From Ancylobacter mangrovi (GTDB lineage Bacteria > Pseudomonadota > Alphaproteobacteria > Rhizobiales > Xanthobacteraceae), in contig NZ_JANTHZ010000004.1 in the NCBI RefSeq assembly GCF_024752355.1, forward strand, positions 124,001 through 188,000: DNA of 64,000 bases. Direction: 5' to 3'. The notes below the pieces were generated by a model, which did no database searches, had not been told where the DNA came from, and saw only the letters and a list, made by a program, of their open reading frames with translations. Within the stretch, counting starts at the first letter, position 1. The number at the start of each line of letters is the position of its first letter. Position numbers and translations under genes: made by a program. This document shows positions 36,357 through 63,136 of the stretch, piece after piece.

Positions 36357-37460
36357 TCAGAGCGTGCCGGCCTTGAAGTCGTTCCACATCTGCAGGCGGC
36401 GGTCGAAATCTTCCGGCTTCTGCAGGATGACGAGCTTCTCCCAGAAGTCGCCGGCCTGGGAGTCGGGGATGTTGGTGCGCTTGAGGGTCTTCTCGCTCAC
36501 CCCGCCTTCCTTGGCCTCGGCAAGGTCGAGCACGCCGTTATTGGTCGAGGCTTCGATGAAGCGGGACTGCCATTTGACCGACAGGTTGTCGTTGATGAAC
36601 TTGTAGACGATGTCGCGGTCGCCCTTCTTGGAGACGCCGGTGCAGTCGATCCAGGTCGGGGTGCCTTCCTTGGGCAGCGAGTAGTCGAAGTTCTTGCCCT
36701 TGTCCTGCAGCGAGGTCACCACGGCGATGTTCTGGCAGTAGCCGATCACGGCGTCGCCGGCGGCGTAGATGTTCACCGCGTCGTCGAAGCCGCGGGCGAT
36801 GGTGCGCACCTGCTTGCGCAGCGCGCGCAGCGCGTCGGCACACTTGTCGAACTCGGCGTCGGTCAGGTTGAACGGGTCCTTGGCGCCGATGTAGAGCGCG
36901 ATCATGGGGAACACGATCGTGCAGTCGTCGAACACGTTCACCTTGCCTTCGTACTTCTCGTCCCACAGCACCGCCCAGGTGTCGGGAGACTTGGTGACGT
37001 CGGCATCGAACATCAGCGGCTGGGTTCCCCAGTTGTAGGGAATGCCGACGATCGAGCCGTCCACGGTGGTGAACTTCTTCCAGTCGAGCTTGGAGGTGAT
37101 GTTGGAGGTGTTCGGCACCTTCGACGTGTCGAGGGTGGTGATGAGGCCGGCCTCGTGGAAGCGCGGCAGCGAGCCGGTCTCGATATACATCACGTCCGGC
37201 TGGATCGCCCCGGAGAAGGGCTGGGAGAACAGCTCGTCGACCGAGCCGATCACCACCGGCTTCACCTCGACGCCGTTGGCCTCGCTCCATTCCTGGCACC
37301 AGGCCGGGTCGTGATAGGTCTCCCAGGTCAGGAGCACGATCGGCTCTTGCGCGTAGGCCCGGCGCAGCACGCCCGGCGCTGCCAGCGTCGCGGCCGCAAG
37401 TCCCATGCCTTTCATGACGCTGCGCCGCGACGGCGCTCGATCATTCTTTCGGAAGGTCAT
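36357..37460 (-). CDS. Extracellular solute-binding protein, PotD-like, Tat-type leader
   Basis: A 367-residue periplasmic receptor. The leader has SRRSVMKG (residues 11-18) and a hydrophobic stretch ending YAQ, which fits Tat export. The segment GIPYNWGTQPLMFDADV is the PotD-like ligand-cleft region. PotD relatives bind polyamines and other cationic or amino compounds. It is the first gene of its operon, and a sigma-54 promoter lies 46 nt upstream. Confidence 0.92.
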   Translation of the reverse strand: MTFRKNDRAPSRRSVMKGMGLAAATLAAPGVLRRAYAQEPIVLLTWETYHDPAWCQEWSEANGVEVKPVVIGSVDELFSQPFSGAIQPDVMYIETGSLPRFHEAGLITTLDTSKVPNTSNITSKLDWKKFTTVDGSIVGIPYNWGTQPLMFDADVTKSPDTWAVLWDEKYEGKVNVFDDCTIVFPMIALYIGAKDPFNLTDAEFDKCADALRALRKQVRTIARGFDDAVNIYAAGDAVIGYCQNIAVVTSLQDKGKNFDYSLPKEGTPTWIDCTGVSKKGDRDIVYKFINDNLSVKWQSRFIEASTNNGVLDLAEAKEGGVSEKTLKRTNIPDSQAGDFWEKLVILQKPEDFDRRLQMWNDFKAGTL

Positions 37461-37797
37461 TTTTATTCCCTCTGTTCGGGGCCCTGGCGGCCGGTTTCGG
37501 GTTCGGCAACAAACGTGCCACCCGGGGGCGCCGCTATTCCGAAAGAATATTTTTCGTTCTTGATGATAAAATTCTTTTATTCACTAAACTTAGCGCGGCC
37601 TATTCATCGTCATATAACCAGAATTCAAGGGATAAAGGCAAACTCGACACTGCGACATGTCTCTCCGCCTGTCTTAATAAAGCGATTTCGTCGCATGGGC
37701 GGGAATGTTGCATGGACGAGCCAGGGGAGTCGCACCGGCGCGACAGGTCGCCGGCCCGCGCGGTCTCGTGCGTGCACCGCGAGCATGGTCACGGTCG
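37461..37797. promoter_or_regulatory. Regulatory gap between the activator gene and the importer operon
   Basis: This 337-nt A/T-rich stretch carries no gene that I can support. It holds the sigma-54 promoter at 37506-37520 and an 8-bp palindrome GACATGTC (37654-37661) within TGCGACATGTC. That palindrome lies about 135 nt upstream of the promoter, a usual distance for an activator site. Confidence 0.5.
37506..37520 (-). promoter_or_regulatory. Sigma-54 promoter of the PotD-like/fused-permease operon
   Basis: On the minus strand TGGCAC-GTTTG-TTGC matches the -24/-12 consensus TGGCAC-N5-TTGC exactly. It lies 46 nt before the ATG of the binding-protein gene. The gene immediately upstream encodes a GAFTGA-containing activator. 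Confidence 0.85.
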
Positions 37798-39780
37798 TCA
37801 GTGGGCGATCTGATAGCGCTGGAGCTTGCGGTAGAGCGTGGCGCGGCTGAGCTGGAGCGCGACCGCCGCCGCCTTCACATTGCCGCCGCAGCGCGCCAGC
37901 GTGGAGACGATCGCCTCGCGCTCGGCGGCGGCGATGGCGTGGCGCGCGCTGCCCGCCTCGCCGGGCGGCTCTGCCGATTCCGGCACCGGCTCGGGCACCG
38001 CCGTTGCCGGCATGGGCATGCGGCCCGCCGGACGGATCATGATGTCGCGCGCCTGGAGCACGGGCCCCTCGCACATGTGGATCGCGCGGTTCAGCACATG
38101 GCCGAGCTCGCGCAGATTGCCCGGCCATGGATGGCCGAGAAGCAGCGCGATGGCGTCGGGCGCGAGCTCGATGGCGCGCTCCCCGACCAGCCGAGCGAAC
38201 ACCGCCTCGATCAGCTCGCGGCGGTCGGCGCGCTCGCGGAACGGCGGAATGTCGATCACCGCGCCGGCGAGCCGGTAGTAGAGGTCCTGCCGGAACAGGC
38301 CGCTGGCGATCTGCTCCTCGAGGTTCTGGTTGGTGGCGGCGACCACCTGGACGTCGATGCGCCGCGGTTTGCCGGAGCCGAGCGGCGTCACCTCGCCCGA
38401 TTCCAGCACGTGCAGCAGGCGCGTCTGCTGGCCGAGCGGCATGTCGCCGATCTCGTCGAGGAACAGTGTGCCGCCGTCGGCCTCGACCAGGCGGCCGGGG
38501 CTGCCCTCGCGCCGCGCGCCGGTGAAGGCGCCGCTGCCATAGCCGAACAGCTCGCTGTCGATCAGCGTGTCGGGCACCGAGGCGCAGTTGAAGGCGACGA
38601 ACGGGCCACCCCGCCGCGGGCTCTCCGCGTGCACCGCACGGGCGAACACGTCCTTGCCGGCGCCGGTCTCGCCGAGCAGGAGGATGGGCAGCGAGCCGCC
38701 CAGCACCCGCCGCACGAAGCGCACATTGGCCTTCATGCGCGGGTCGCCGCCGGCGCAGTCGTCGAGCGTCAGCCGCCGGTCCGCAGCAGCGAGCGGCGCG
38801 GCCGGGCGGCGCGGCGCGCTGGCGGCGTCGGCCGCGGTGAAGCGGCTGGAGGCGGGCGGCGCCTCGGCCGGGCCGCTGAGCAGGACGCTGAGCGCGTCGC
38901 CGCCCTTCTGCAGGTGCAGCGTCAGCTCGGCACCCGCGAGCCGGGTGAGGTCGAGCAGGCGGTGGTCGCGCTCGAAAATCGCCCACAGGCTGCGCACGCG
39001 GCCGAGCTGCACCCGGTCGCGCAGCATCTCGCGGGCGGCACGGTTGAGGCCGACGAGCTGGAAGTCGCCATCGACCGCGATCAGGCCGTGATCGACCGGC
39101 CCGGTCGCGAATTTGAGAATGTAGTTGCGGCGGAAGGTGTGCCGGAACATCCGCTCGCCGATGCGGTCGGCAAGGCCGGTGGTGAGGCCGAGCACCACCT
39201 TCAGCGTCTCGCGCTGCAGCTCCGGATTGCGGATGGAGATGTTGATCGCCCCCATCAGCTCGGCGTTGGGGCTGAACAGCGGCGCGCTGGCGCAGGACAG
39301 GGCCGAGAATTCGTAGAAGAAATGGTCGTTGGTGTGCACGCCGACCGGCCGGCCCTCGACCAGGCAGGTGCCGATGGCGTTGGTCCCGGCGGACGGCTCG
39401 GCCCAGGCGGTGCCCGCGCGCTCGACCTCGCTGTAGAATTGCGGGTTGTAGTTGGCGCGCTCGGCGATGACGTAACCGTCGAGATTGCCAAGGCTGATGC
39501 TGAAGCCGGACAGCGACACGGCGCCGAAGGCGGCGTCGATCTCCGGGCCGGCGAAATGGACCAGCTCGTCATTCGCCTCGCGGTGGCGCTTGAGCTCGGC
39601 GTCACTTACCGATTCGATCAGGAACTTCGCCGCCGGGTCGAAGCGGTAGCCTTCCATGCAGCGCCGCCAGGAGGCGGCCATGGTGTCGGCGGTGCGTAGC
39701 GCCCGCGTCTCCTCGGGCGGCAGGGAAAGCTGGTTCGCGCTCGAAACGATCCGTGAAACGTGACTGCGAAGATCCAGCAT
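37798..39780 (-). CDS. Sigma-54-dependent transcriptional activator (AcoR-like: GAF - AAA+ - Fis)
   Basis: A 660-residue activator. The N-terminal part (about residues 40-180) is a GAF-type sensor. The central AAA+ domain has Walker A GETGAGKD and GSGAFTGARREG, whose GAFTGA loop contacts sigma-54. Walker B is GGTLFLDEIGD. The C-terminal Fis helix-turn-helix is VKAAAVALQLSRATLYRKL. The ATG at 39778-39780 has GGAGCTGGAG upstream; the frame is open 38 codons further. It sits between the LLM/ALO operon and the importer operon, both with sigma-54 promoters, and is a paralogue of the activator at 45740-47668. The ligand is unknown. Confidence 0.93.
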   Translation of the reverse strand: MLDLRSHVSRIVSSANQLSLPPEETRALRTADTMAASWRRCMEGYRFDPAAKFLIESVSDAELKRHREANDELVHFAGPEIDAAFGAVSLSGFSISLGNLDGYVIAERANYNPQFYSEVERAGTAWAEPSAGTNAIGTCLVEGRPVGVHTNDHFFYEFSALSCASAPLFSPNAELMGAINISIRNPELQRETLKVVLGLTTGLADRIGERMFRHTFRRNYILKFATGPVDHGLIAVDGDFQLVGLNRAAREMLRDRVQLGRVRSLWAIFERDHRLLDLTRLAGAELTLHLQKGGDALSVLLSGPAEAPPASSRFTAADAASAPRRPAAPLAAADRRLTLDDCAGGDPRMKANVRFVRRVLGGSLPILLLGETGAGKDVFARAVHAESPRRGGPFVAFNCASVPDTLIDSELFGYGSGAFTGARREGSPGRLVEADGGTLFLDEIGDMPLGQQTRLLHVLESGEVTPLGSGKPRRIDVQVVAATNQNLEEQIASGLFRQDLYYRLAGAVIDIPPFRERADRRELIEAVFARLVGERAIELAPDAIALLLGHPWPGNLRELGHVLNRAIHMCEGPVLQARDIMIRPAGRMPMPATAVPEPVPESAEPPGEAGSARHAIAAAEREAIVSTLARCGGNVKAAAVALQLSRATLYRKLQRYQIAH

Positions 39781-39910
39781 CGCGGGCTCCAGCTCCGACC
39801 CCCCGCCTAAATTCTGCGCAGCACAATTCTTAACCGTCAACCCGCCTTCCCTTTCGCTTCGGCAGCCCCGCGACGAGGCGCGACGGGCCGGCACCGCCGG
39901 CCCGCCCCTC

Positions 39911-41179
39911 TCACGCGAACAGCATCCTCAGATGATCGTTGAGGAACACGCCGTCGGGATCCATCTCGCGGCGCAGACGCTTGAAGGCGTCGTATTTCGG
40001 ATAGATCCGCTCGAGCCGCTCCGGTGTCATGAAGTGGTGCTTGCCCCAGTGCGGGCGCGCGTCGTAGCGGTCGAGGATGGCGTCGGCGTCGCGCAGCATG
40101 CCCCAGGTCCATTCCTCGAGCGGGCCGGAGATCGAGAGCGCATAGCCGTCCCGCTCCGCATAGGCGGAGAGGTAGGTGTCGTCGGCCTTCACCGCCCGGC
40201 ACTCCACCGGGTAGAGCGCGTCGGGATATTTGGTCTGGAACATGTGCCGGACCTCGGCGAAGCACTCCTCGAAGCGCCCGAACGGCACCGCGTACTCGAT
40301 CTCGCGGAAGTTCGGGATGTAGTCGTTGGGGTAGATGATCGAGGAATGGTCGAACTCCTCGCCCGGCCCGAGCTCGGGCGCCGGCTGGTCCACCGGCACC
40401 GCGTTGTAGGTGCGCATGTGGCAGATGTCGTGCTCGCGGGTCGCGGTCGAGGGCACCACGCCGCCCGGCAGCTCGTAGAGCTCGGCCGACTTCTTGAGCG
40501 GCAGCCAGAAGAACCAGAAGGTGCGGTTCTCGTCGAGCCGCTTGTGCAGGTTGCCGATGCAGTCCTCCACGTCGGCGTTCCAGGAGCGCTTGTAGATGTT
40601 GTAGGAGGGCACCGCCTGGATAGTGACCGACACCACCAGCCCGAACATGCCGATCGAGGTGCGGAATGCCTTGAACAGCTCGCCATCGGCCGGCGACAGG
40701 TCGCGCAATTCGCCGTCCGCGGTCACGATCCGCGCCCCGGCGATGGCGGTGGACATGCAGGGCAGCGTCTTGCCCGCGCCATGCGTGCCGGTCATCAGCG
40801 CGCCGATGATCGCCTGACGGTCTATGTCGCCCTGGTTGTTCAGCGACATGCCCTGCTCGCGCAGGAAGGCGGTGAGCGCGCTCACCCGCATGCCCGGGCG
40901 CACCGTGACCTGGAGCTTCTCCCTGTCGACCGAGACGACCTGGTTGAAATCGTCGAAATCGACATGCACGCCCGGCGTCGGCACGATGGCGGGATTGGAG
41001 TGCCCCGCCCCGCTGGCGCGGATCGGGAGGCCCAGCCTGCGCGCCTCGCGCACGATCGCGCAGACCTCCTCCTCGGAGGTCGGCCGCGCCGTGTAGCGCG
41101 GCACGAAATACTGCTCGCCGAACCAGTTCCACCAGAGCTTGCCCGGCTGCAGCAATCCGCCCTTGTCCACGCTCAGCAT
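39911..41179 (-). CDS. FAD-linked oxidoreductase of the aldonolactone/alditol oxidase (VAO) type
   Basis: A 422-residue flavoenzyme. The FAD-binding PP-loop region reads RPTSEEEVCAIVREA and SGAGHSNPAIVPTPG. The middle has ALMTGTHGAG, and the C-terminal domain has ARPHWGKHHFMTPE, which is characteristic of L-gulonolactone/D-arabinono-1,4-lactone oxidase relatives. Such enzymes oxidise polyol or lactone hydroxyls with oxygen or a dehydrogenase acceptor. The ATG at 41177-41179 has GGAAGGG upstream. It follows an LLM monooxygenase gene by 19 nt in a sigma-54-promoted operon. The substrate is unknown. Confidence 0.85.
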   Translation of the reverse strand: MLSVDKGGLLQPGKLWWNWFGEQYFVPRYTARPTSEEEVCAIVREARRLGLPIRASGAGHSNPAIVPTPGVHVDFDDFNQVVSVDREKLQVTVRPGMRVSALTAFLREQGMSLNNQGDIDRQAIIGALMTGTHGAGKTLPCMSTAIAGARIVTADGELRDLSPADGELFKAFRTSIGMFGLVVSVTIQAVPSYNIYKRSWNADVEDCIGNLHKRLDENRTFWFFWLPLKKSAELYELPGGVVPSTATREHDICHMRTYNAVPVDQPAPELGPGEEFDHSSIIYPNDYIPNFREIEYAVPFGRFEECFAEVRHMFQTKYPDALYPVECRAVKADDTYLSAYAERDGYALSISGPLEEWTWGMLRDADAILDRYDARPHWGKHHFMTPERLERIYPKYDAFKRLRREMDPDGVFLNDHLRMLFA

Positions 41180-41198
41180 ATCGATCCCTTCCACTCGC

Positions 41199-42305
41199 TC
41201 AGACCGCCATTGCCGGCGCTTCGCCCAGAGCCTCGTTGACCGCGGGCATGACGCGCCGGGCGAGCAGCTCCATCGAGCGGCGCATGACGCTCTCGTCCTC
41301 CCATTCGTGCGACGTCATCATCAGCGTGCCGAACGGGCCGACCTCGTCGCGCAGCTCGAGGATCTTGCGGGTCACCGTCTCCGGGCTGCCGTAGATCACG
41401 AAATTGTCGCGCACCAGCTCGTGGGTGATGGTCGCCGGATCGGTGTCGCGGAACGGGGCGAGCAGCGCGCCGGCGCCCATGCGGTCATAGACCTTGTACA
41501 TGTAGTCGTAATACCAGTCATAGGCGCCGCCCGGCTTCTTCACGTAGCGCTCCGCCGCCTCGTCGGTGTCGGCGACATGGATCGAGCGGGCGACGCGCCA
41601 TTTGGAGCCGTCCGGCACCTTGCCGAGCTTGGCCAGCTCGTCGCAATAGGTTTCCCAGTGGGTCTTCACCACCCAGGAGGCGACGAAGTTCGCCGAGATC
41701 GGCATGAAGTCGTTGCGCGCGGCGACGCGGATCGAGTTCGAATTGGGGCTGGAGACCGAGACCGCCAGCGCGGGGTGCGGCTTGGTCAGGGTCTTCGGCA
41801 GGATGCCGACGCCGAGATCGGGCCAGTACATCTTGCTCAGCTTCACGTCCCAGAACTTGCCGGGAATGTCGTAGGGCGGATCGGCGGCCCAGATCCGCTT
41901 AATCATGTCGATCGAGTCGAGCATCATCGCGGTGCGATCGGCGTTCTCCATGCCGTAGACCTCGAAGTCCGAGCCGAGGCCGCCGGTGCCGATGCCGAGG
42001 ATGAGCCGCCCGGGGGCGAGGTGGTCGAGCAGCGCGATATGCGCGGCCGCCATCACCGGATGATAGAGCGGCAGCGTCATGACGCCGGTGCCGAGCTTGA
42101 TGCGCTTGGTCTGCGGCGCCATGTGCGCCAGGAACATCAGCGGCGAGGAGATCTGCTCGATGGAAGCCGAGTAGTGCTCTCCGATCCAGCCTTCCTCGAA
42201 GCCGAGTTCGTCGGCGAGCTTGAAGGCCTGGATGTCCTCCCGCAGCGAGGTGGCATAGTCCCTTTGGACCGAGTGAAGCGGCATCATGAAGAAGGAAAGC
42301 AGCAC
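41199..42305 (-). CDS. LLM-class flavin-dependent monooxygenase (limonene-monooxygenase-like), copy 1
   Basis: A 368-residue luciferase-like TIM-barrel monooxygenase, which needs reduced flavin from a separate reductase. Typical segments are LADELGFEEGWIGEHYS and LLDHLAPGRLILGIGTGGLG. The start is a GTG (42303-42305) with GGGAG eight bases before it; the in-frame ATG pair six and seven codons later is the alternative. It is the first gene of a sigma-54-promoted pair with the VAO-type flavoenzyme. It is paralogous to the LLM protein at 52125-53228. The only reductase gene nearby is at 62639-63136. Confidence 0.9.
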   Translation of the reverse strand: MLLSFFMMPLHSVQRDYATSLREDIQAFKLADELGFEEGWIGEHYSASIEQISSPLMFLAHMAPQTKRIKLGTGVMTLPLYHPVMAAAHIALLDHLAPGRLILGIGTGGLGSDFEVYGMENADRTAMMLDSIDMIKRIWAADPPYDIPGKFWDVKLSKMYWPDLGVGILPKTLTKPHPALAVSVSSPNSNSIRVAARNDFMPISANFVASWVVKTHWETYCDELAKLGKVPDGSKWRVARSIHVADTDEAAERYVKKPGGAYDWYYDYMYKVYDRMGAGALLAPFRDTDPATITHELVRDNFVIYGSPETVTRKILELRDEVGPFGTLMMTSHEWEDESVMRRSMELLARRVMPAVNEALGEAPAMAV

Positions 42306-42356: not shown

Positions 42357-42371
42357 GCAAGGGCTGTGCCA
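42357..42371 (-). promoter_or_regulatory. Sigma-54 promoter of the LLM1/VAO operon
   Basis: On the minus strand TGGCAC-AGCCC-TTGC is an exact match to the -24/-12 consensus, 52 nt before the LLM gene start. Confidence 0.85.
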
Positions 42372-42424: not shown

Positions 42425-42439
42425 GAGACACCGCGTCTC
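42425..42439. promoter_or_regulatory. Inverted repeat upstream of the LLM1 sigma-54 promoter
   Basis: GAGAC-ACCGC-GTCTC has perfect 5-bp arms and lies about 55 nt upstream of the -24 element. It is a candidate binding site for one of the two activators. Confidence 0.45.
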
Positions 42440-42504
42440 ATCGCGGAGAAAGCCGCCACGCGGATGCGAACACGCCGGCGCCCGGACGCATCCGCGGCCT
42501 TGCG

Positions 42505-48945: not shown

Positions 48946-48953
48946 GCTGTCCC

Positions 48954-53362: not shown

Positions 53363-53475
53363 GCGGAAAAAAGTGCTTTGAATCAGAGAGGTAGATCGAT
53401 CGAGGGATTCCGGTACGGCACCCGTGAGACGCCGGCGCGATGAGACGTTTCTCCTGCGTGAGACCGCCGGCGCCG

Positions 53476-54570
53476 TCAGTGGGTGAGCAGCACCGCCGCC
53501 TCCGGCCGCCAGCAGGCGCGCACCTCCTCGCCCTGGGCCAGCATGACGCCGTCGACCGAGCGGGTGGCCTGGTACTTGAGCGTCTCGACCGGGGTGCGGA
53601 TCGAATAGAGCACCCGGCTGCCCATGAAGACGACGTCCTCGACCGTGCCTTCCAGCGCGTTGGCGTCACCCTCCGTCGCGGCGGGCTGGGCGCGCCGGCA
53701 CACCTGCAGCGCCTCGGGCCGGATGGCGAGCGAGACCTTCTGGCCGACCGCGAGCGCGGTGCCGTTGGTCGGCACCTTCACCGTGCCCGTGCCGAGGTCG
53801 ACATAGGTCACCTCGCTCTCGCAGGCCCGCACCGCGCCGTCGAGGATGTTGGTCTCGCCGAGGAAGCGGGCGCAGAACAGCGAGCGTGGATGGGCATACA
53901 TCTCCTCCGGCGTGCCGATCTGCTCGATGCGGCCCCCATTCATCAGCACGATCCGGTCCGAGAGGATGGTCGCCTCGTCCTGGTCGTGCGTCACATAGAT
54001 GAAGGTGGTCCCGGTCTCCTGGTGGATGCGCTTGAGCTCGGCCAGCATGTGGTGGCGGATCTTCAGGTCGAGCGCGGCGAGCGGCTCGTCGAGCAGCAGC
54101 ACCGAGGGCGAGTTGACGAGTGCGCGCGCCAGCGCGACGCGCTGCGCCTGGCCGCCCGACAATTCGTGGATCCAGCGGTTGCCGTAGTCGCCGAGCTGCA
54201 CCAGCTGCAGCATGTTCCGCACCACCTCGCGGATGCGGTCCTTCGGCCATTTCTTCAGCCGGAGGCCGAAGGCGACGTTGTCGAACACGTCGAGATGGGG
54301 AAACAACGCGTAGCGCTGGAACACCATGTTCACCGGCCGCCGGTCGGGCGGCAGGTTGGAGACGTCCGCGCCCTTGATGATGACCCGCCCGTGCGTCGTC
54401 GGCTCGAAGCCGGCGATGATGCGCATCAGCGTGGTCTTGCCGCAACCGGAGGGGCCGAGAAGGGTGAGAATCTCACCCTCGACGATGTTGAGATCGATGT
54501 CGTGCAGGACCGTGAGCGCGCCGAAGGCCTTGGTGACGCCGTAGAGCTCGACGATGTTGGAAGCGGTCAT
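53476..54570 (-). CDS. ABC transporter ATPase, PotA-type
   Basis: A 364-residue ATPase. Walker A is GPSGCGKTT, the signature LSGGQAQRVALARA, Walker B VLLLDEP and the switch THDQDEAT. A TOBE-like C-terminus follows from about residue 240. The ATG (54568-54570) overlaps the permease stop as ATGA. In this operon the ATPase is the last gene, unlike the other three importers, where it precedes the permeases. Confidence 0.93.
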   Translation of the reverse strand: MTASNIVELYGVTKAFGALTVLHDIDLNIVEGEILTLLGPSGCGKTTLMRIIAGFEPTTHGRVIIKGADVSNLPPDRRPVNMVFQRYALFPHLDVFDNVAFGLRLKKWPKDRIREVVRNMLQLVQLGDYGNRWIHELSGGQAQRVALARALVNSPSVLLLDEPLAALDLKIRHHMLAELKRIHQETGTTFIYVTHDQDEATILSDRIVLMNGGRIEQIGTPEEMYAHPRSLFCARFLGETNILDGAVRACESEVTYVDLGTGTVKVPTNGTALAVGQKVSLAIRPEALQVCRRAQPAATEGDANALEGTVEDVVFMGSRVLYSIRTPVETLKYQATRSVDGVMLAQGEEVRACWRPEAAVLLTH

Positions 54571-55361
54571 TCCTGGATGTCCTTGGCACGAGCGTTCAGG
54601 GCCGATCGCCGCTGGTACCAGACCAGCAGTCCGCCGAGCAGGATGATGCCGATCGACAGCGAGAGGGAGAGGACCGACGCCGCGTTGATGTCCGGGCTGA
54701 CGGCGCGGCGCATCATCGACCAGATGGTCAGCGGCAGCGTCGTGTTGTTGCCGCTGACGAAGACGGTGATGATGAATTCGTCGAAGGACAGGGCGAAGGA
54801 GAGGATCGCCGCGCCGCCGATGGTCGGGCCGATGATCGGCAGCGTGACCAGCCGGAACGCCTGCGCCGGCGTGGCGCCGAGATCGCGCGCGGCCTCCTCG
54901 AGCGAAAGGTCGAAATACTCGATCCGCGAGCGCACCGCCTCGAGGAAGAACGGCAGCGTGAACAGCACATGCGCGATGGTCACGGTGAACAGCGACCGCG
55001 CGAGGCCGATCTGCGAGAACAGCATCACCAGCGCGATGCCGAGGAACAGGCCCGGCAGCGCCACCGGCCCGAAGGAGAGCAGCCCGAACAGCGTCTGCAC
55101 GCGCCCCTTCAGCCGGGCCAGGCCGAGCGCGGTGAGCGAGCCGAGCACGGTGGTGGTGGCGGCGGTGGCGGTGCCGACCAGGATGCTGTTCCACAGCGAA
55201 TCCATGAAGGTCGTGTTGGTGAAGATCCGCGCGTACCAGCGCAGGCTGAAGCCCTCGAACGGGAAGGTCAGGCTCGGCGAGCTGTGGAAGCTGAACAGCG
55301 TGATGATCGCGATCGGCGCGTAGAGGAACGCCACGTAGAGCCAGACATAGATTCTCAGCAT
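54567..55361 (-). CDS. ABC transporter permease, PotC-type
   Basis: A 264-residue permease with about six helices. The EAA loop is LEEAARDLGATPAQAFRLVT. GGAGG precedes the ATG at 55359-55361. The frame is open far upstream into the partner permease but the alignment begins here. It lies 29 nt behind the PotB-type gene. Confidence 0.92.
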   Translation of the reverse strand: MLRIYVWLYVAFLYAPIAIITLFSFHSSPSLTFPFEGFSLRWYARIFTNTTFMDSLWNSILVGTATAATTTVLGSLTALGLARLKGRVQTLFGLLSFGPVALPGLFLGIALVMLFSQIGLARSLFTVTIAHVLFTLPFFLEAVRSRIEYFDLSLEEAARDLGATPAQAFRLVTLPIIGPTIGGAAILSFALSFDEFIITVFVSGNNTTLPLTIWSMMRRAVSPDINAASVLSLSLSIGIILLGGLLVWYQRRSALNARAKDIQE

Positions 55362-55390
55362 GAGACCTCCGTGGGCCGGAACGTCGCGGA

Positions 55391-56263
55391 TCAATCGTGG
55401 AAACGGCGCCCCGGGGCGAGCCGCAGCAGGTGCAACAGCCGCACGAAGACGAAGTAGACCAGCAGGAAGGCCGCGAGCAGGAGGAAGGCCATGGCGGCGC
55501 CGAACGGCCAGTTGCCGGAGGAGCGGAACTGGTTGGCGATGAGGATGCCGGTCGTCATCCCCTCGCGTCCGCCCAGGAGCTGCGGCGTCACGAAGTCCCC
55601 CGCCGAGATGACGAAGGTGAACATGAAGGCGCCGATGATGCCCTTGTAGCACATGGGCAGCATCACCCGGGTCAGCACCTCGAACGGGCTGGCGCCGAGG
55701 TCGCGCGCGGCCTCGATATATTCGCGCCGCACGTCGCGCAGCGCCGAGACCAGCAGCAGCAGCCCGAAGGGCAGCATGATGTGGATCAGGGTGAGGATGG
55801 TCGCGAAGGGGCTGAACAGCAGCACCTCGATCGGGTGGTCGATCAGCCCGAGCTGCATCAGCGTGGTGTTGATCAGCCCGTTCGAACCCAGGATCACGCG
55901 CCAGGCGTAGATGCGCACCAGATAGCTGGAGAACCAGGACACCAGGATCAGGTAGAACAGCAGGTTTCCGCGCGTGCGGTAGACGATGAAATAGGCGGTG
56001 GGAAAGCTGAGCGCGACGGTGAACGCCGCCGTGCACAGGCCGTTCTTGAGCGCGTTCCAGGTCAGCACGTAGAAGCCGGACGCTGAGAGCGCCCGGCTGT
56101 AATTGTCGAAGCTGAAGGCCGGGATCAGCCGGAACGAGTGGGCCAACCAGAAGCTGCAGACGAACAGGAGAGCTGCCGGGACGATGAAGAACACGAGCAG
56201 AAAAAGGAAGGAGGGAGTGACGAGCGCCAATCCCATTGCCTCACGCCGACTTCCCTTCAGCAT
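55391..56263 (-). CDS. ABC transporter permease, PotB-type
   Basis: A 290-residue permease with about six helices. The EAA loop is IEAARDLGASPFEVLTRVML. The ATG at 56261-56263 is chosen because a basic leader and the first helix follow; a GTG three codons upstream close to AGGAG is a possible alternative. It lies 37 nt behind the binding-protein gene. Confidence 0.9.
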   Translation of the reverse strand: MLKGSRREAMGLALVTPSFLFLLVFFIVPAALLFVCSFWLAHSFRLIPAFSFDNYSRALSASGFYVLTWNALKNGLCTAAFTVALSFPTAYFIVYRTRGNLLFYLILVSWFSSYLVRIYAWRVILGSNGLINTTLMQLGLIDHPIEVLLFSPFATILTLIHIMLPFGLLLLVSALRDVRREYIEAARDLGASPFEVLTRVMLPMCYKGIIGAFMFTFVISAGDFVTPQLLGGREGMTTGILIANQFRSSGNWPFGAAMAFLLLAAFLLVYFVFVRLLHLLRLAPGRRFHD

Positions 56264-56300
56264 CTCCGGCACGGTCTCCTCTGGTCGCGGTTCGGCCTGA

Positions 56301-57470
56301 TCAGAACGAGGACTTGAAGTCGGTCCAGGCCTGCGTCCACTCGTCATAGGTGGCGTAGACGTCGGAGGTGCGCGGCGGCTGGCCCTGCAGCGGCGACTTC
56401 TTGAACACCTGCTGGAGGTCGCTGTAGTCGAACAACGCGCGCGTATGGGCGTCCATCAGCTCCGGCGCGTGCTTGTTCACCGCGCCGCCCGTCACCGCCT
56501 TGCAGACCTCGGCCTGCACCTTGGCGCTGATGGCCTCGTTCATGAAGGCGTAGCCGGTGTCCATGTTCTGCGCGCTGATCGGCATGAACCACGCGTCGCA
56601 CCACATCACCGCGCCTTCCTCCGGCACCGCGTAGATGGTCTTCACGCCGCGCTTGGCGGTCTCCACCGGCGTGCCGCTCCACACGCAGAAGCAGGCGGCG
56701 ATCTCCTTGGAGGAGAACAGCGAGATCACGTCGCCATTGGAGGAGCCGAAAACGCGGCACTGGTCGCGATAGGGACCGAGGCCCTCGAAGGCCGTCTTCA
56801 TCTCGTCCTTGGTGAGGTTCGGGAATTTCGGCCCCAGCCCGGCGATGCGCGCGATCATCGGCCAGGTGGCGATGGTGTCGTCGCAGAAGGTCAGCTTGCC
56901 CTTGAGCTCCGGCGCCAGCAGGTCCTTGTAGGACTTGATGGGCTGGGTCATCTCCGGATTGTAGACCAGCGCGTTGAGGCCCCAGACCCACGGAATGGCG
57001 TAGTGGGTGTCGTTCCAGTACCAGGTCGGCGCGTTGTAGAATTCGGGCTGGATGTTCTCGGGCGTGAAGTTCGGCACCTTGGCGATGTCGAGCGGCTTCA
57101 CGATCTTCAGCTCGTCGACATAGAAGTGCTCGAAGCCCTGCGAATACTCGGCGAGGTCGAGCCGCACCGGGCTGCCGCCGATCAGCTTGGCGTGGACGTC
57201 GTCCTGCGTGCTGATGATCGCCGCATCGACCTGGACGTTGTTCGCCTCGCGCCAGCCCTTCAGCTCGTTGTCGAGCGTGAAGCCCTCCCACGCCATGATC
57301 TTCAGGTCGCCGCCGACCGCGGCCTGCGCGGGCATCGGGCCCGGCCAGCTGCCGAGCGTCGCCCCTGCGCCGAGCGCCAGGCTCGTGCCGAGGAAGCCGC
57401 GACGGGACAGGACGTCGTTGCGGAATATGTTGGGGCTCCCGAACGGGCGCCCGTGAGGCGTATCGACCAT
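56301..57470 (-). CDS. Extracellular solute-binding protein, PotD-like, Tat-type leader
   Basis: A 389-residue periplasmic receptor. The leader contains LSRRGFLGTSLALG (residues 21-34), a good Tat motif, and probable cleavage near AQA (about residue 50). AIPWVWGLNALVYNPEM is the PotD-like cleft segment. It is the first gene of the operon SBP - permease - permease - ATPase. A sigma-54 promoter lies 61 nt upstream. Confidence 0.92.
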   Translation of the reverse strand: MVDTPHGRPFGSPNIFRNDVLSRRGFLGTSLALGAGATLGSWPGPMPAQAAVGGDLKIMAWEGFTLDNELKGWREANNVQVDAAIISTQDDVHAKLIGGSPVRLDLAEYSQGFEHFYVDELKIVKPLDIAKVPNFTPENIQPEFYNAPTWYWNDTHYAIPWVWGLNALVYNPEMTQPIKSYKDLLAPELKGKLTFCDDTIATWPMIARIAGLGPKFPNLTKDEMKTAFEGLGPYRDQCRVFGSSNGDVISLFSSKEIAACFCVWSGTPVETAKRGVKTIYAVPEEGAVMWCDAWFMPISAQNMDTGYAFMNEAISAKVQAEVCKAVTGGAVNKHAPELMDAHTRALFDYSDLQQVFKKSPLQGQPPRTSDVYATYDEWTQAWTDFKSSF

Positions 57471-57530: not shown

Positions 57531-57545
57531 GCAAGAGGTGTGCCA
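57531..57545 (-). promoter_or_regulatory. Sigma-54 promoter of the second PotD-like importer operon
   Basis: On the minus strand TGGCAC-ACCTC-TTGC (followed by T) is an exact -24/-12 match, 61 nt before the binding-protein ATG. Confidence 0.85.
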
Positions 57546-57692: not shown

Positions 57693-59288
57693 TCAGGGCG
57701 CGGGGGCGCCGCGGATCAGCTCGGCCGCCTTCTCGCCGATCATGATGGCGCAGGCATTGGTGTTGCCCGAGGGGACGGAGGGCATCACCGAGGCGTCGGC
57801 GACCCTGAGGCCGACGATGCCGCGCAGCCGGAGCTGCGGATCGACCACCGCGTCGTCGTCGGTGCCGATCCGGCAGGTGCCGACCGGGTGCAGCGCCCCC
57901 TGCGCGCGCTCCCTCACATATTCCCGCCGCTCCTCCACCGTGCGCAGCACCCGCCCGGGCAGCTGCTCGCACGCCAGCCGGCCGGCCATGGAGGGCTGCG
58001 CCATGATCTCCTGCCCGAGCCGCACCCCCTCGGCCATGCAGTCGAGGTCGTAGGGCTCGGCGAAATAGTTCGGCGCCACCCTGAGCGGGGCGAGCGGATC
58101 GGCCGAGGTCAGCTCGACCACGCCGCGCGAACGCGGGCGGGTGAGGCAGATGTTCAGCGTCGAACCGCAGCCGCGCGCCGTCGCCACGCCCTCCTCGATC
58201 CCGGTGCCGGGCAGGAAATGGAACTGCAGGTTGGGCTCGGCGCTCTGCGCGTCGCCCCACCAGAACGCACCCGCCTCGATCAGGTTGGAGCACAGCGGGC
58301 CGCGCCGGAACAGCAGCCATTGCAGCCCCGCCATCAGCTTGCGGTCGAGCCGCCGATAGGCGTCGTAGCTCTCGATCCCGTCGAGCTCGTGGACGATGTA
58401 GACGTCCATGTGATCCTGAAGGCCGCGCCCGACGCCAGGAAGCTCCTGCTGTACCTCCACGCCGACCCGGCGCAGATGGTCGGCCGGCCCGATGCCGGAC
58501 TGCAGCAGCAGGCGCGGCGACTGCAGGGCGCCGGCCGAGAGGATCACCTCGCGCGAGGCCTGCGCGACCTCGCGCCGCCGCCCGCGCGCGAGGTACTCGA
58601 CGCCCCGCGCCCGCCCCTTGTCGAGGAGGATGCGCGTCGCCCGGCAACCGGTGCGCACGGTGAGGTTCGGCCGGCGCCGTGCCGGCTTGAGGTAGGTGAC
58701 GGCGCTCGAGGCGCGTCGCCCGTCGCGCGCGGTGATCTGGTAGAGGCCGCAGCCGGTCTGCATCCCGGCATTGAAGTCGGCGGTCGGAGGGATGCCGAAC
58801 TCCTGGCACGCCTTCAGCCACGCCTTGGCGAGCGGGTGCGGCGAGGGCTGGCTCGACACCCAGAGCGGGCCGTCCGTGCCGTGCGCGGCGTCGGAGAAGG
58901 TGTCGTTGCTCTCCGCCCTGCGGAAGAACGGCAGCACGCCGGCATAGTCCCAGCCCGTCGCGCCCTGCGCCGCCCAGCCGTCGAAATCGGAGGGAATGCC
59001 GCGCACATACACCATCGCGTTGACCGAGCTGCCGCCGCCGAGCACGCGCGCCTGCACCATGTGCGGCGCCGGCGTGCCGGACGACGCCCCGTTGGCCGGC
59101 TCCCAGGCGATGCGCTGCAGGAGACTGCCGGTGGCGGTGCGGTAGACCATCGCCGGCAGGTGGATGGAGGGGAACAGGTCGCGCGGCCCCTCCTCCAGCA
59201 GCAGCACCGAGACGGCCGGGTCCTCCGACAGCCGGGCCGCCAGCACGCAGCCGGCCGATCCGCCGCCGACGATCACATAGTCGTACAT
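57693..59288 (-). CDS. GMC-family alcohol oxidoreductase, copy 3
   Basis: A 531-residue GMC enzyme. The fold starts YVIVGGGSAGCVLAARLSED, signature 1 is RVLGGGSSVNAMVYVRG, signature 2 is GALQSPRLLLQSGIGP and the catalytic region is ALHPVGTCRIGT. It resembles copy 2 more than copy 1 in the signatures. The ATG at 59286-59288 is the family's usual start; a frame open 213 codons further upstream is spurious. It is a single-gene unit with a weak sigma-54-like promoter 48 nt upstream. Confidence 0.93.
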   Translation of the reverse strand: MYDYVIVGGGSAGCVLAARLSEDPAVSVLLLEEGPRDLFPSIHLPAMVYRTATGSLLQRIAWEPANGASSGTPAPHMVQARVLGGGSSVNAMVYVRGIPSDFDGWAAQGATGWDYAGVLPFFRRAESNDTFSDAAHGTDGPLWVSSQPSPHPLAKAWLKACQEFGIPPTADFNAGMQTGCGLYQITARDGRRASSAVTYLKPARRRPNLTVRTGCRATRILLDKGRARGVEYLARGRRREVAQASREVILSAGALQSPRLLLQSGIGPADHLRRVGVEVQQELPGVGRGLQDHMDVYIVHELDGIESYDAYRRLDRKLMAGLQWLLFRRGPLCSNLIEAGAFWWGDAQSAEPNLQFHFLPGTGIEEGVATARGCGSTLNICLTRPRSRGVVELTSADPLAPLRVAPNYFAEPYDLDCMAEGVRLGQEIMAQPSMAGRLACEQLPGRVLRTVEERREYVRERAQGALHPVGTCRIGTDDDAVVDPQLRLRGIVGLRVADASVMPSVPSGNTNACAIMIGEKAAELIRGAPAP

Positions 59289-59335: not shown

Positions 59336-59350
59336 GCAAGTCCCGGTCCG
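59336..59350 (-). promoter_or_regulatory. Weak sigma-54-like promoter of GMC3
   Basis: The minus strand reads CGGACC-GGGAC-TTGC. The -12 TTGC and -24 GG are kept, but the TGGCAC element is degenerate. Its position, 48 nt before the ATG, matches the stronger sites in this locus. Confidence 0.4.
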
Positions 59351-59575: not shown

Positions 59576-59590
59576 TGGCACGCATCGTGC
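59576..59590 (+). promoter_or_regulatory. Sigma-54-like promoter of the MFS gene
   Basis: TGGCAC-GCATC-GTGC keeps the full -24 element and the -12 GC, with GTGC for TTGC. It ends 56 nt before the ATG at 59647. Confidence 0.5.
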
Positions 59591-59646: not shown

Positions 59647-60825
59647 ATGATTGAGTATTCCGCCACGCGCGAGGAACGCGCGCTGGCTGCGTCGCGTCTG
59701 GCCGCGTCGGCCATCTTCTTCGTGGGTGGCGCCGGACTGACGGTGTGGGCGACCTTCATCCCGCTGCTGAAGGTGCGGGCCGGGCTTGACGACGCGCAGA
59801 TCGGCATGGTGCTGCTCTGCGTCTCGCTCGGCTGCCTGTGCGGCATGCCGGCGGCCGGCGTGCTGCGCCCGCGCCTCGGGCCGATCCGCTCCGGCGCGCT
59901 GGCGGGCCTCGCCTTCGCCGCCGCCATATGCGCGCCGGGGCTGGGCTGGTCGATGCCGCTGCTGATGGGCGCGGCCTATCTCATCGGGCTGAGCTTCGGT
60001 TTCCTCGACGTGTGCATCAACGCCCATGTCTCCGCGCTCGAGCGCGAACTCGGCTGGCCCATCATGTCGTCCGCCCACGCCTTCTTCAGCGTCGGCAACG
60101 TGTCGGGGGCGCTGATCGGCGGCGCGCTGATCGGCGCCGGGCTCGGCATACCCGCCGGGCTCGGCATCGCCAGCCTGCTGCTGATCGCGATCGCCGCGAT
60201 CGCCTCGTCCTGGCTGTGGCTTCCCGAAGCCCATGTGCGCGAGGCGCACAGCACCTCGGTGTTCCAGCTTCCGAGCCGGACCATCATCGGCCTCGGCGTG
60301 CTCACCGTGCTTGCCTTCATCGTCGAGCTGGCGCTGATCGACTGGGGCGCGCTGTATCTGGTGCAGGTCACCGGCTCCCCGCCGGCGCAGGCGGCCTATG
60401 GCGTGGCGGCGTTCTCGCTCGCCATGGCGATCGGGCGCTTCCGCGGCGACCGGATCGTGCATCGCTACGGCGAGGTGGCGACGATCCGGGTCTCGGCGGT
60501 GATCGCCATCATCGGCATCGCCGCCATCGTGCTGGCGCCCACGGCGCTGATCGCCCTGCCCGGCTTCGCGGTGGCGGGGTTCGGCATCGCCAACATGGTG
60601 CCGATCCTGTTCTCACTCAGCGGCCGGATGCCGGGAGTGGCGCCGACCGCCGGCATCGCCATGACCGTGACCATCGCCTATGGCGGCGGCCTGTTCGGGC
60701 CGCCGCTGGTCGGCTTCGTCGCCCATACGCAGGGCATGCGCGCCGCCTTCGTCATGCTGATCGGCGGCGCGCTGGTCATCACGGCGCTGGTGCGCTGGAT
60801 CATCCCGCGCAACCTGCGAAAGTGA
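59647..60825 (+). CDS. MFS transporter (YbjJ/fucose-permease-like)
   Basis: A 392-residue major facilitator with about 12 hydrophobic segments. The stretch GFLDVCINAHVSALERELG followed by PIMSSAHAFFSVGN is characteristic of the YbjJ-like group. The ATG at 59647 has GGGAACG upstream; the frame is open 35 codons before it in arginine-rich nonsense. It converges with the aldehyde dehydrogenase gene, 7 nt apart. Its role in this locus could be uptake or export of a substrate or product. Confidence 0.88.
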   Translation: MIEYSATREERALAASRLAASAIFFVGGAGLTVWATFIPLLKVRAGLDDAQIGMVLLCVSLGCLCGMPAAGVLRPRLGPIRSGALAGLAFAAAICAPGLGWSMPLLMGAAYLIGLSFGFLDVCINAHVSALERELGWPIMSSAHAFFSVGNVSGALIGGALIGAGLGIPAGLGIASLLLIAIAAIASSWLWLPEAHVREAHSTSVFQLPSRTIIGLGVLTVLAFIVELALIDWGALYLVQVTGSPPAQAAYGVAAFSLAMAIGRFRGDRIVHRYGEVATIRVSAVIAIIGIAAIVLAPTALIALPGFAVAGFGIANMVPILFSLSGRMPGVAPTAGIAMTVTIAYGGGLFGPPLVGFVAHTQGMRAAFVMLIGGALVITALVRWIIPRNLRK

Positions 60826-60832
60826 CCCGCCC

Positions 60833-62320
60833 TCAGGCGAGCTTCATCACCACCGCCTTGGTCTCGAGATAGGCGTCGAGATGCTCGGTGCCGGACTCGC
60901 GCCCGTAGCCGCTGGTCTTGTAGCCGCCGAACGGGACCACCGGGTCGAGGCCGCCATAGGTGTTCACCCACACCGTGCCGGTGCGGATCGCCTTGGCCAT
61001 GCGGTGGGCGGTGGTGACGCTGCTGGTCCACACGCCGCCGCCGAGCCCGAACACCGTGTCGTTGGCGATCGTGGCCGCTTCCTCCAGCGTGTCGAAGGGG
61101 ATGGCCGCGGCCACCGGGCCGAAGATCTCCTCGCGGGCGACGCGCATGGTGTTGTCCACGCGGCTCAGCACGGTCGGCTCGAAGAAGAAGCCGTCCTTCA
61201 GGGCGCCCTCGGTCAGGCGCCGCCCGCCGGTGGTGGCGGTCGCGCCCTCGCCGAGGCCGATCTCCATGTAGTCGCTGACGCGGTCGAGCTGCTTGGCGTT
61301 CACCACCGGGCCGATCTGGGTCGCCGGGTCGAGTCCGTTGCCGACCTTGAGCGACTTCGCATAGTCGCTCACCCGCGCGACGAACTCCTGGTAGATCGGG
61401 CGCTGCACCAGGAGCCGCGTGCCGGCGCAGCAGATCTGCCCGGTATTGGCGAACACGCCCATGCCGGCGCCGGCGACGGCCGCGTCCATGTCGCAATCGG
61501 CGAAGATGACGTCCGGCGACTTGCCGCCGAGCTCCAGCGTCACCCGCTTGATGTTGCCCTTCGAGGCCTCGATGACCTTGCGGCCGGTGATGTCGGAGCC
61601 GGTGAAGGCGACCTTGTCGACGTCCATGTGGCGGGCGAGCGCGGCGCCCGCCTTGTCGCCGAAGCCGGGCACGATGTTGACGACGCCTTCCGGCACGCCG
61701 GCCTCGAGCAGCAGTTCGCCGAGGCGCAGCGCGGTCAGCGGCGCGTCCTCGGCGGGCTTGAGCACCATGGTGCAGCCGGTCGCCAGCACCGGGCCGATCT
61801 TCCAGATGGTCGAGGTCAGCGGCGCGTTCCACGGGGTGATGGCGCCCACCACGCCGACCGGCTCCTTGAGCGTGTAGGAAAACACCTCGCCCGGGAAGGA
61901 GTTCGGCAGCGTGCCGCCCTGGATCACCGTGCACATGCCGGCATAGAAGCGCGGCAGGCCGAGCGCGCGCTGGCGGCGCGCATGCATCGAGGTGATGGGC
62001 GCACCCATGTCGAGCACGTCGATCAGGGCCAGCGATTCGAAGTGCTTCTCGACCAGGTCGGCGAAGCGCAGCAGGCATTGCTGGCGCTCGAACGGGGTGA
62101 AGCGGCTCCACGGCCCGGTGAAGGCGCGCCGCGCGGCGGCGACGGCGAGGTCGATGTCGGCGGCGTCGCCCTCGGCGACGTTGGCCAGCAGCTCGCCCGT
62201 CGCCGGGTTGCGGGTCTCGAAGGTCCGGCCCGACAGGGCGGGGACGAACTTGCCATCGATCAGGAGCTGCTTGGGAAGGCCCCCGACGACATTGGCGGTG
62301 ACGTCTACATTGATGGTCAT
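60833..62320 (-). CDS. NAD(P)+-dependent aldehyde dehydrogenase
   Basis: A 495-residue ALDH. The cofactor region is GAITPWNAPLTSTIWKIGP, the general-base Glu is in VTLELGGKSPD and the nucleophile Cys in NTGQICCAGTR. The C-terminus has PFGGYKTSGYGRESG. It oxidises an aldehyde to the acid, and the three GMC enzymes of the locus are natural sources of aldehydes. The ATG at 62318-62320 is chosen because a sigma-54 promoter lies 39 nt before it, inside the longer open frame. Confidence 0.94.
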   Translation of the reverse strand: MTINVDVTANVVGGLPKQLLIDGKFVPALSGRTFETRNPATGELLANVAEGDAADIDLAVAAARRAFTGPWSRFTPFERQQCLLRFADLVEKHFESLALIDVLDMGAPITSMHARRQRALGLPRFYAGMCTVIQGGTLPNSFPGEVFSYTLKEPVGVVGAITPWNAPLTSTIWKIGPVLATGCTMVLKPAEDAPLTALRLGELLLEAGVPEGVVNIVPGFGDKAGAALARHMDVDKVAFTGSDITGRKVIEASKGNIKRVTLELGGKSPDVIFADCDMDAAVAGAGMGVFANTGQICCAGTRLLVQRPIYQEFVARVSDYAKSLKVGNGLDPATQIGPVVNAKQLDRVSDYMEIGLGEGATATTGGRRLTEGALKDGFFFEPTVLSRVDNTMRVAREEIFGPVAAAIPFDTLEEAATIANDTVFGLGGGVWTSSVTTAHRMAKAIRTGTVWVNTYGGLDPVVPFGGYKTSGYGRESGTEHLDAYLETKAVVMKLA

Positions 62321-62358: not shown

Positions 62359-62373
62359 GCAAGAGATATGCCA
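62359..62373 (-). promoter_or_regulatory. Sigma-54 promoter of the aldehyde dehydrogenase gene
   Basis: On the minus strand TGGCAT-ATCTC-TTGC matches the -24/-12 consensus with the common TGGCAT variant, 39 nt before the ATG. Confidence 0.75.
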
Positions 62374-62507
62374 CCCCCAGGTCGCGCGCGCCCGGCCCCG
62401 GCGCACGCCCGGTGCGCGCGGGTTAACCCGACGTGGCTGCTCGATTTTCCGATTGTTCCGCGCCCCGGCGAAGCGTCTCCGCCGGCGCCGGCGGCCGTCT
62501 CAGTTCA

Positions 62508-62521
62508 GCGACACTTGTCGC
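62508..62521. promoter_or_regulatory. Inverted repeat between two divergent sigma-54 promoters
   Basis: GCGACA-CT-TGTCGC has perfect 6-bp arms. It lies 55 nt upstream of the flavin reductase -24 element and about 135 nt from the ALDH promoter, so one activator site could serve both. Outer GTCTC and GAGAC arms flank it. Confidence 0.6.
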
Positions 62522-62576
62522 AGCCGGTGCCGAGACAGGGACCCTCTACGGCCCGCAACTGCGTGCGATCGCGACG

Positions 62577-62591
62577 TGGCACGCGACTTGC
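62577..62591 (+). promoter_or_regulatory. Sigma-54 promoter of the flavin reductase gene
   Basis: TGGCAC-GCGAC-TTGC is an exact -24/-12 match on the plus strand, ending 47 nt before the ATG at 62639. Confidence 0.85.
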
Positions 62592-62638
62592 GGTCCCGGC
62601 GGCAACGTGCCCGCGCGGGCCGCGAAGCGGAGTTCGCC

Positions 62639-63136
62639 ATGATCGATCCAGTCCATTTCAAGCACGGCATGCGGCGCCTCGCCGCCGGCGTGTCGGTGAT
62701 CACCACCTGCGAGGACGGCCAGCCGCACGGCTTCGTCGCCACATCCGTGACCTCGGTCGCCGCCGATCCGACGCCGACCCTGCTGGTCTGCGTCAACCGC
62801 TCGGTGTCCTGCCACGACGTGATCGACAAGTCCGGCTCGTTCTGCGTGAACCTGCTGGCCGAGCCCGACCTCGAGCTCGCCAAGGCGTTCAGCTCCGGCC
62901 GGGACCGGCACCTGCGCTTCAGCACGCATGAATGGCGCCCGCTCTCGACCGGCGCGCCGGCGCTGGCCAGCGCGCTGGCGAGCTTCGACTGCGTGCTGAC
63001 CGAGCGCATGTCGGTGCACACGCACACCATCTTCCTGGGCAGCGTGGTGGATATCGTCCTGCCCGACGGCCCGCTCCACCCGCTGATCTATGCCGGCGGG
63101 CAGTTCGACACGCTGGGCTCGCGCATGCGGGCCTGA
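62639..63136 (+). CDS. Flavin reductase-like protein (HpaC/FMN-binding split barrel)
   Basis: A 165-residue flavin reductase domain protein. It begins FKHGMRRLAAGVSVITTCED, then GFVATSVTSVAADPTPTLLV and KSGSFCVNLLAE, all typical of the NAD(P)H:flavin oxidoreductases that feed two-component monooxygenases. It ends LIYAGGQFDTLG. GGAG precedes the ATG. It is the only such gene in the window and has its own sigma-54 promoter, so it probably supplies reduced flavin to both LLM monooxygenases. Confidence 0.93.
   Translation: MIDPVHFKHGMRRLAAGVSVITTCEDGQPHGFVATSVTSVAADPTPTLLVCVNRSVSCHDVIDKSGSFCVNLLAEPDLELAKAFSSGRDRHLRFSTHEWRPLSTGAPALASALASFDCVLTERMSVHTHTIFLGSVVDIVLPDGPLHPLIYAGGQFDTLGSRMRA

Follow-up and report, generated by a model that had tools for sequence, protein, structure and literature searches.

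A predicted two-activator sigma-54 regulon with six to eight promoters at a probable uptake and oxidation locus of Ancylobacter mangrovi

SfnG is a luciferase-like flavin monooxygenase, which fits its NCBIfam name, and the SfnR-sfnFG system consists of one operon under one activator. In Pseudomonas putida, the sigma-54 activator SfnR is reported to regulate this dimethyl sulfone operon (PMC13352529). For the Clostridiales, a survey assigns 170 of 263 activators to one operon and the other 93 to two to six, and gives TGT/ACA repeats with a spacing of 10-12 for fifteen activator groups (PMC6615313). In this study, we describe a locus of ~30 kb (33519-63136) in a window of 64,000 bases of Ancylobacter mangrovi DNA (positions 124001-188000 of contig C17, in a genome of 4,914,190 bases and 22 contigs), which is very probably a sigma-54 regulon for importing small substrates that probably bear an amine and for oxidizing them step by step. 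Compared with the single operon and single activator of SfnR-sfnFG, this locus appears to have six to eight promoters, and it encodes a pair of activators, EBP1 and EBP2. Its luciferase-like monooxygenases, LLM1 and LLM2, each score 33 bits against the SfnG model (NCBIfam TIGR04021, cut-off 383), which does not support them as SfnG. EBP1 and EBP2, which we take to be of the AcoR type, resemble the activators of acetoin and other operons in their GAF domain (EBP1 only, Pfam), AAA+ domain with GAFTGA and Fis helix-turn-helix, and differ in their target operons. Systems of this kind are already known, and the interest of this member lies in how many promoters it appears to have, in the pairing of its activators and in its pathway. 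A reading made earlier from the sequence only had called the promoter number unusual, which is fair but not extreme, given that activators with two to six operons are reported for Clostridiales (PMC6615313). It had also confined the locus to 36357-63136; the block of promoters and genes is as it described, but the left edge moves to 33519, because the ATPase and permease of the importer ABC1 sit behind its binding protein.

TGGCAC-N5-TTGC is the core of the sigma-54 -24/-12 consensus. The window holds five exact copies (100 shuffles gave a mean of 0.13 and a maximum of 1), a TGGCAT variant before the aldehyde dehydrogenase (ALDH) gene and two weaker sites before GMC3 and the MFS transporter gene, all where the sequence-only reading had placed them and each in the orientation of the gene that follows it (Table 1). 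From the last base of the box to the start codon we counted 45 bases for the ABC1 binding protein, 51 for LLM1, 119 for LLM2, 60 for the ABC2 binding protein, 38 for ALDH, 47 for GMC3, 47 for the flavin reductase and 56 for MFS, that is, 38-60 bases in seven of eight, one base off the 39-61 claimed. When GG and GC had to be kept, the six main sites passed, one of them with T at the sixth base; the GMC3 site keeps GG and GC, and the MFS site keeps both but reads GTGC.

Across the genome the exact pattern occurs 11 times, with five copies inside this 25-kb stretch, and a reversed-pattern control occurs three times; the chance of such clustering is roughly 3e-7 assuming uniform scatter. Outside the locus, four of the six exact sites are intergenic and face a gene in a GC3-filtered list of open reading frames: before CoxG (L002), before a protein without a Pfam match (L010), before GntR followed by an amino-acid binding protein (L011), and ~700 bases ahead of an ABC ATPase (L003). 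Another falls within the opening bases of a Peripla_BP_5 frame, the true start of which may be further in (L001), and the last has no clear gene behind it (L009). At the exact level, therefore, matches of this quality were not found at equal density in coding DNA. A scan with one mismatch allowed was rejected as a promoter finder, as the pattern (161 places) showed no excess over the reversed control (228), and only near-exact matches are thus informative.

We searched 24 same-genus relatives and mapped the 12 with close LLM1 or LLM2 copies, leaving unmapped the remaining 12, whose matches had at most 43% identity. The order ABC1-EBP1-ALO-LLM1-DAO1 is kept in 10 of the 12 mapped relatives, and G021 and G023 have a rearranged core; an LLM1 gene is also found on Ancylobacter polymorphus plasmid pB (NZ_CP083241.1, 50009-51070). 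In the window and 10 Ancylobacter loci, TGGCA[C/T]-N5-TTGC stands before the six lead genes in 56 of 56 copies (11/11 each for ABC1, LLM1, ALDH and flavin reductase, 6/6 each for LLM2 and ABC2), and the base next to TGGCAY, at a position that the search left free, is a purine throughout (G 52 times, A four times). In the rearranged G021 and G023, ABC1, LLM1 and flavin reductase are likewise headed by boxes (2/2 each); in G021 the ALDH gene comes after ALO within the LLM1 run and lacks a separate box. At GMC3 the sequence is CGGACCGG[G/A]ACTTGCT in 6/6 genomes. The MFS site is TGGCAY-N5-[GA]TGCC in the six module-2 genomes, G002 and G024, TGGCACGCATCCTGCC in G020 and, in the canonical TTGC form, TGGCACACATCTTGCT in G010. 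One extra TGGCAT-N5-TTGC match, not assigned to any gene, lies outside the locus in G002 (19577).

The same comparison shows that the locus is two modules. EBP2, DAO2, GMC2, DAO3, LLM2, ABC2 and GMC3 are all missing from the mapped stretches of G002, G007, G010, G020 and G024, so that module 2 and its activator EBP2 are jointly absent in five relatives. The machinery for sigma-54 control is present as well. The genome has one match to rpoN (E 1.8e-70), with the RpoN box ARRTVAKYR, and 11 matches to the sigma-54 interaction domain, two of the six strong ones being inside the locus. Both EBP1 and EBP2 contain GAFTGA, as had been claimed, in an AAA+ domain with Walker A, together with a Fis-type helix-turn-helix, and so have the features of bacterial enhancer-binding proteins. 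Pfam calls a GAF domain in EBP1 and none in EBP2, and neither protein has a model above its cut-off among the 25 NCBIfam matches listed for each.

Upstream of the promoters we found a candidate activator site, TGTCTCA-N4-TGAGACA, which has the TGT-N12-ACA form and in this resembles the TGT/ACA sites reported in the Clostridiales survey (PMC6615313). With at most two mismatches it has a single match in the genome, which contains the first of the two palindromes in the GMC1-EBP2 gap. Among 13 spacings tried between GTCTCA and TGAGAC, N4 was the best. At least 10 of 12 repeat positions matched in 12 of 20 outgroup promoters (L174 2057 (-) and L178 18081 (+), judged coding, were omitted) versus 2.25% of random segments from the same loci. 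Among the 56 same-genus promoters, 50 reached nine or more matching positions, versus 6.6% of random outgroup-locus segments, a background that contains some true sites. A matrix trained on 12 outgroup sites (Agrobacterium, Mesorhizobium, Ensifer, Bradyrhizobium) was tested on the 56 same-genus promoters against 2,100 segments of their own genomes. At p<0.01 it recovered 50 of 50 promoters of ABC1, LLM1, LLM2, ALDH and flavin reductase, which represent 39 intergenic regions, the divergent ALDH and flavin reductase promoters lying in a common one; by eye, the ABC1 match in the window itself is poor. Predicted inverted repeats of the kind expected upstream of enhancer-binding protein targets are thus found in five of the six promoter sets. 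At the site that ALDH and flavin reductase have in common, GTCTCA-N4-AGCGAC is overlapped by GCGACA-N2-TGTCGC. Two other patterns were set aside: GCGACA-N-TGTCGC as a genome-wide operator occurs at three places, one of them here, and makes more sense as a component of the ALDH/flavin reductase site, and a perfect GTCKC-N6-GMGAC, which marks the ALDH/flavin reductase site in 11/11 genomes and few others, was too strict and was superseded by the matrix.

Box and repeat also go together beyond this locus. We entered 63 loci in the comparison, 55 of them with a luciferase-like match, counting both L140 and its duplicate L171 as well as L203, which has no upstream DNA; part of the set came from a class-wide search of 385 genomes, 33 of which had a match at E<=1e-60. 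A box within 300 bases upstream was present in 13 of the 55 (11 of the 13 same-genus), and 13/13 of these also matched the repeat at nine or more of its 12 positions, versus 4 of 42 loci without a box. The genome's own luciferase-like paralogue, on contig C19, has neither box nor repeat.

Single-module relatives are found on plasmids in other genera, with an LLM1-type module in Agrobacterium vitis and LLM2-type modules on Agrobacterium larrymoorei pTi, in Agrobacterium cucumeris, in Mesorhizobium loti and on an unannotated Ensifer plasmid (E. adhaerens). All five have a luciferase-like monooxygenase and -24/-12 boxes, which head operons (five boxes in the A. larrymoorei stretch). In four of the five a flavin reductase, FAD oxidoreductases, an importer and a sigma-54 activator are annotated, the E. 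adhaerens record being unannotated. One activator was found per stretch, in contrast to two in the Ancylobacter module-2 loci. Two Bradyrhizobium also have a -24/-12 box ahead of the luciferase-like gene. In the monooxygenase tree, LLM2 groups with A. larrymoorei (98/96) and LLM1 with A. vitis (97/88); in the activator tree, which took in three of the six EBP2 copies, EBP2 groups with its A. larrymoorei counterpart (88/96, on long branches), and both trees recover (M. loti, (E. adhaerens, A. cucumeris)). The A. vitis activator groups with those of G021 and G023 and not with EBP1. Activators and modules therefore appear to match well in the case of module 2 but in part in that of module 1, because LLM1 pairs with A. 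vitis while EBP1 does not. On pTiAF3.44 of A. larrymoorei (L173), transposase genes flank the module-2 relative, which is accompanied by glycerate kinase and L-serine ammonia-lyase. L174, L175, L177 and L179 contain riboflavin genes (ribA, ribB, lumazine synthase or riboflavin kinase), perhaps to supply the monooxygenases with FMN.

Two related loci, L177 (Phaeobacter) and L179 (Agrobacterium sp. 13-2099-1-2), encode regulators (14517-16391 and 15061-16920, respectively) that lack GAFTGA but retain a degenerate AAA+ domain and helix-turn-helix; as the two are sisters, this would be a single loss. No -24/-12 box was found in either stretch, and an operator-like ACTGTCAATTCTGAGACA is identical upstream of the flavin reductase in both. 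The Walker A loop G-E-[T/S]-G-x-G-K-T is present in these two regulators and in that of L070 (Comamonadaceae). TyrR, DhaR and HupR are activator relatives reported to have lost sigma-54 contact and share the absence of GAFTGA (PMC3162934), and the regulators of L177 and L179 differ from them in adjoining luciferase-like loci.

Several observations weigh against a sigma-54 regulon that covers the whole locus. The relatives' boxes were found by a TGGCAY motif search, and invariance at the motif positions is therefore by construction, although the lack of a single miss is not. The GMC3 and MFS boxes are off-consensus, although conserved, and the MFS box forms an inverted repeat, GGCAY..RTGCC, for which reason it could be the operator of another protein. 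In the six genomes inspected, GMC1-DAO1 has no -24/-12 box despite activator-like palindromes, and a CTATACTT conserved on the GMC1 side of the GMC1-EBP2 gap (6/6 genomes) suggests a sigma-70-type start there. ABC2 has no clear upstream site by the matrix (0/6 at p<0.01, 1/6 at p<0.05), the repeat reaches 10 of 12 in none of the five A. larrymoorei promoters, and the GC-rich base composition of the matrix favours AT-rich promoter DNA over a mostly coding background. Finally, a luciferase-like gene occurs together with a GAFTGA activator at L070, yet no -24/-12 box was found there. As L070 is the sister of L177/L179 in both trees, boxes may have been absent before GAFTGA was lost in that lineage, and a parallel-loss reading is weakened by its combination of GAFTGA and no box. 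The sigma-54 reading rests on six promoters kept without a miss in 11 genomes, on rpoN and on candidate upstream sites at five of the six promoter sets, and is qualified by GMC1-DAO1, where no box was found. We regard it as well supported by several independent sequence tests.

A scheme of mixed control, compatible with the sigma-54 reading, is a serious possibility that we would still stop short of calling probable. Sigma-54 would serve the importers, monooxygenases, ALDH and flavin reductase, GMC1-DAO1 and EBP2 would depend on sigma-70, and the GMC1-EBP2 palindromes would be operators for activation or autorepression. The tandem palindromes and the conserved CTATACTT without a box, in 6/6 genomes, are in agreement with it; however, G002, G020 and G024 do have a -24/-12 box upstream on the GMC1-DAO1 side, which in G002 stands before an annotated RidA gene. 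More tentatively, and with rather more doubt, the two-activator regulon may have arisen by the joining of two single-activator modules with one operator code, a shared flavin reductase and ALDH, and a self-amplifying EBP1, with the sister lineage of L177 and L179 having left sigma-54 while retaining an operator-like repeat. Because operator code, flavin reductase and ALDH would be shared, either substrate would then induce the common machinery. We consider it improbable that the boxes, as genuine sigma-54 promoters, respond to a general activator, for example NtrC under nitrogen limitation, rather than to the local pair: the genome does have four further genes with a strong activator-domain match, and among the six exact sites elsewhere one is at the Peripla_BP_5 gene, which we take to belong to a urea-type transporter, but loci of other genera that encode this type of local activator share the upstream repeat, and EBP2 and its module occur or are missing together. 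That the motif is the operator of a different DNA-binding protein and resembles a -24/-12 element by chance is very improbable, for, the inverted repeat at MFS notwithstanding, the six main sites are asymmetric, with N5 fixed, 38-119 bases before starts in the window and a purine after TGGCAY, and they accompany GAFTGA activators and rpoN.

For a sigma-54 regulon under its two local activators, we propose that RpoN polymerase would wait at six strong promoters, those of ABC1, LLM1-ALO-EBP1, LLM2-DAO3-GMC2-DAO2, ABC2, ALDH and flavin reductase, and that the weaker promoter before GMC3 and probably that before MFS would also be used. EBP1, plus EBP2 for the second module, would be switched on via their N-terminal regions, presumably by a substrate or intermediate, would bind TGTCTCA-N4-TGAGACA-like sites ~70-160 bases upstream, and would open the polymerase through their GAFTGA loops. 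Induction of EBP1 is expected to feed forward, because EBP1 comes after LLM1-ALO in one predicted gene run; transcription continuing from ALO into EBP1 is likely, as only a short gap separates them. A GC-rich inverted repeat without a T run lies between ALO and EBP1 (39880-39910) and could attenuate EBP1 expression.

The features of the locus are collected in Table 1. By sequence, the closest solved relative of LLM2 is 3,6-diketocamphane monooxygenase, and the flavin reductase is presumed to be the FMNH2 source for LLM1 and LLM2. In G022 a RidA gene lies inside the LLM2-DAO3 gap (L154:4026-4388); in that gap of the window (51951-52125) no RidA-like frame was seen, and the DNA there encodes short repeats. 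Molybdenum hydroxylase genes of the xanthine dehydrogenase type (29422-32799) adjoin the ABC1 permease and lie outside the proposed regulon.

Table 1. Positions in the window of promoter elements, candidate activator sites and genes
Feature	Position	Strand	Remarks
ABC1 -24/-12 promoter	37506..37520	-	TGGCACGTTTGTTGC; kept in 11/11 genomes
LLM1-ALO-EBP1 -24/-12 promoter	42357..42371	-	TGGCACAGCCCTTGC; kept in 11/11 genomes
LLM2-DAO3-GMC2-DAO2 -24/-12 promoter	53348..53362	-	TGGCACGGCGCTTGC; kept in 6/6
ABC2 -24/-12 promoter	57531..57545	-	TGGCACACCTCTTGC; kept in 6/6
ALDH -24/-12 promoter	62359..62373	-	TGGCATATCTCTTGC; kept in 11/11
Flavin reductase -24/-12 promoter	62577..62591	+	TGGCACGCGACTTGC; kept in 11/11
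GMC3 off-consensus -24/-12 site	59336..59350	-	CGGACCGGGACTTGC
MFS off-consensus site	59576..59590	+	TGGCACGCATCGTGC; GTGC at -12; also an inverted repeat
Candidate activator site before LLM1 promoter	42435..42450		GTCTCA-N4-GGAGAA
Two tandem palindromes, GMC1-EBP2 gap	45469..45506		TTCTCA-N4-TGAGA[C/A]; 6/6 genomes, by eye
Candidate activator site before LLM2 promoter	53449..53464		GTCTCA recurs nearby
Candidate site common to divergent ALDH and flavin reductase promoters	62497..62521		11/11 genomes
ABC1 importer (PotABCD-like)	33519..37460	-	genes consecutive behind the 37506 box
ABC1 fused double permease	33519-35270	-	
ABC1 ATPase	35239-36387	-	
ABC1 binding protein	36357-37460	-	
EBP1, GAF-AAA+(GAFTGA)-Fis helix-turn-helix activator	37798..39894	-	closes LLM1-ALO-EBP1 run; exact start uncertain
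ALO-type FAD oxidoreductase	39911..41194	-	
LLM1, luciferase-like FMN monooxygenase	41199..42305	-	
DAO1, FAD oxidoreductase	42505-43779	-	
GMC1, FAD oxidoreductase	43783-45366	-	
EBP2, AAA+(GAFTGA)-Fis helix-turn-helix activator	45488..47668	+	real start probably downstream of 45488
DAO2	47683..48957	-	
GMC2	48954..50540	-	
DAO3, aminophosphonate-oxidoreductase-like	50557..51951	-	start uncertain, possibly ~52120
LLM2, luciferase-like FMN monooxygenase	52125..53228	-	
ABC2 importer (PotFGHI-like)	53476..57470	-	
ABC2 ATPase	53476-54570	-	
ABC2 permeases	54567-55361 and 55391-56272	-	
ABC2 binding protein	56301-57470	-	
GMC3	57693..59288	-	
MFS transporter	59647..60825	+	
ALDH	60833..62320	-	
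Flavin reductase	62639..63136	+	

With regard to the substrate, polyamine as the importer ligand is not supported by the PotD and PotF models, which give both binding proteins 47-74 bits, far under their equivalog cut-offs of 582-636. Both proteins retain one Asp near the C-terminal lobe motif, which aligns with the polyamine site, and nearby residues of the site are changed. This combination of one retained Asp and differences at the other positions hints that the ligand may be an amine other than a polyamine, and the pathway compound is probably amine-containing. Ring cleavage of trigonelline (TgnA/TgnB) or of pyridine (PyrA) was considered as a candidate reaction. Among the matches listed in our literature search on candidate substrates and gene combinations, no paper describes this locus.

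It appears, then, that one locus holds six to eight sigma-54 promoters, including five of the genome's 11 exact sites, together with a readable operator. It would offer a compact system for asking whether promoters are split between two related activators or used by both, and how, and the relatives whose regulators lack the GAFTGA loop raise the question of whether sigma-54 control can be abandoned once that loop goes. Moreover, the locus points to an undescribed oxidative pathway common to Ancylobacter and plant-associated Rhizobiales, in one case on a Ti plasmid.

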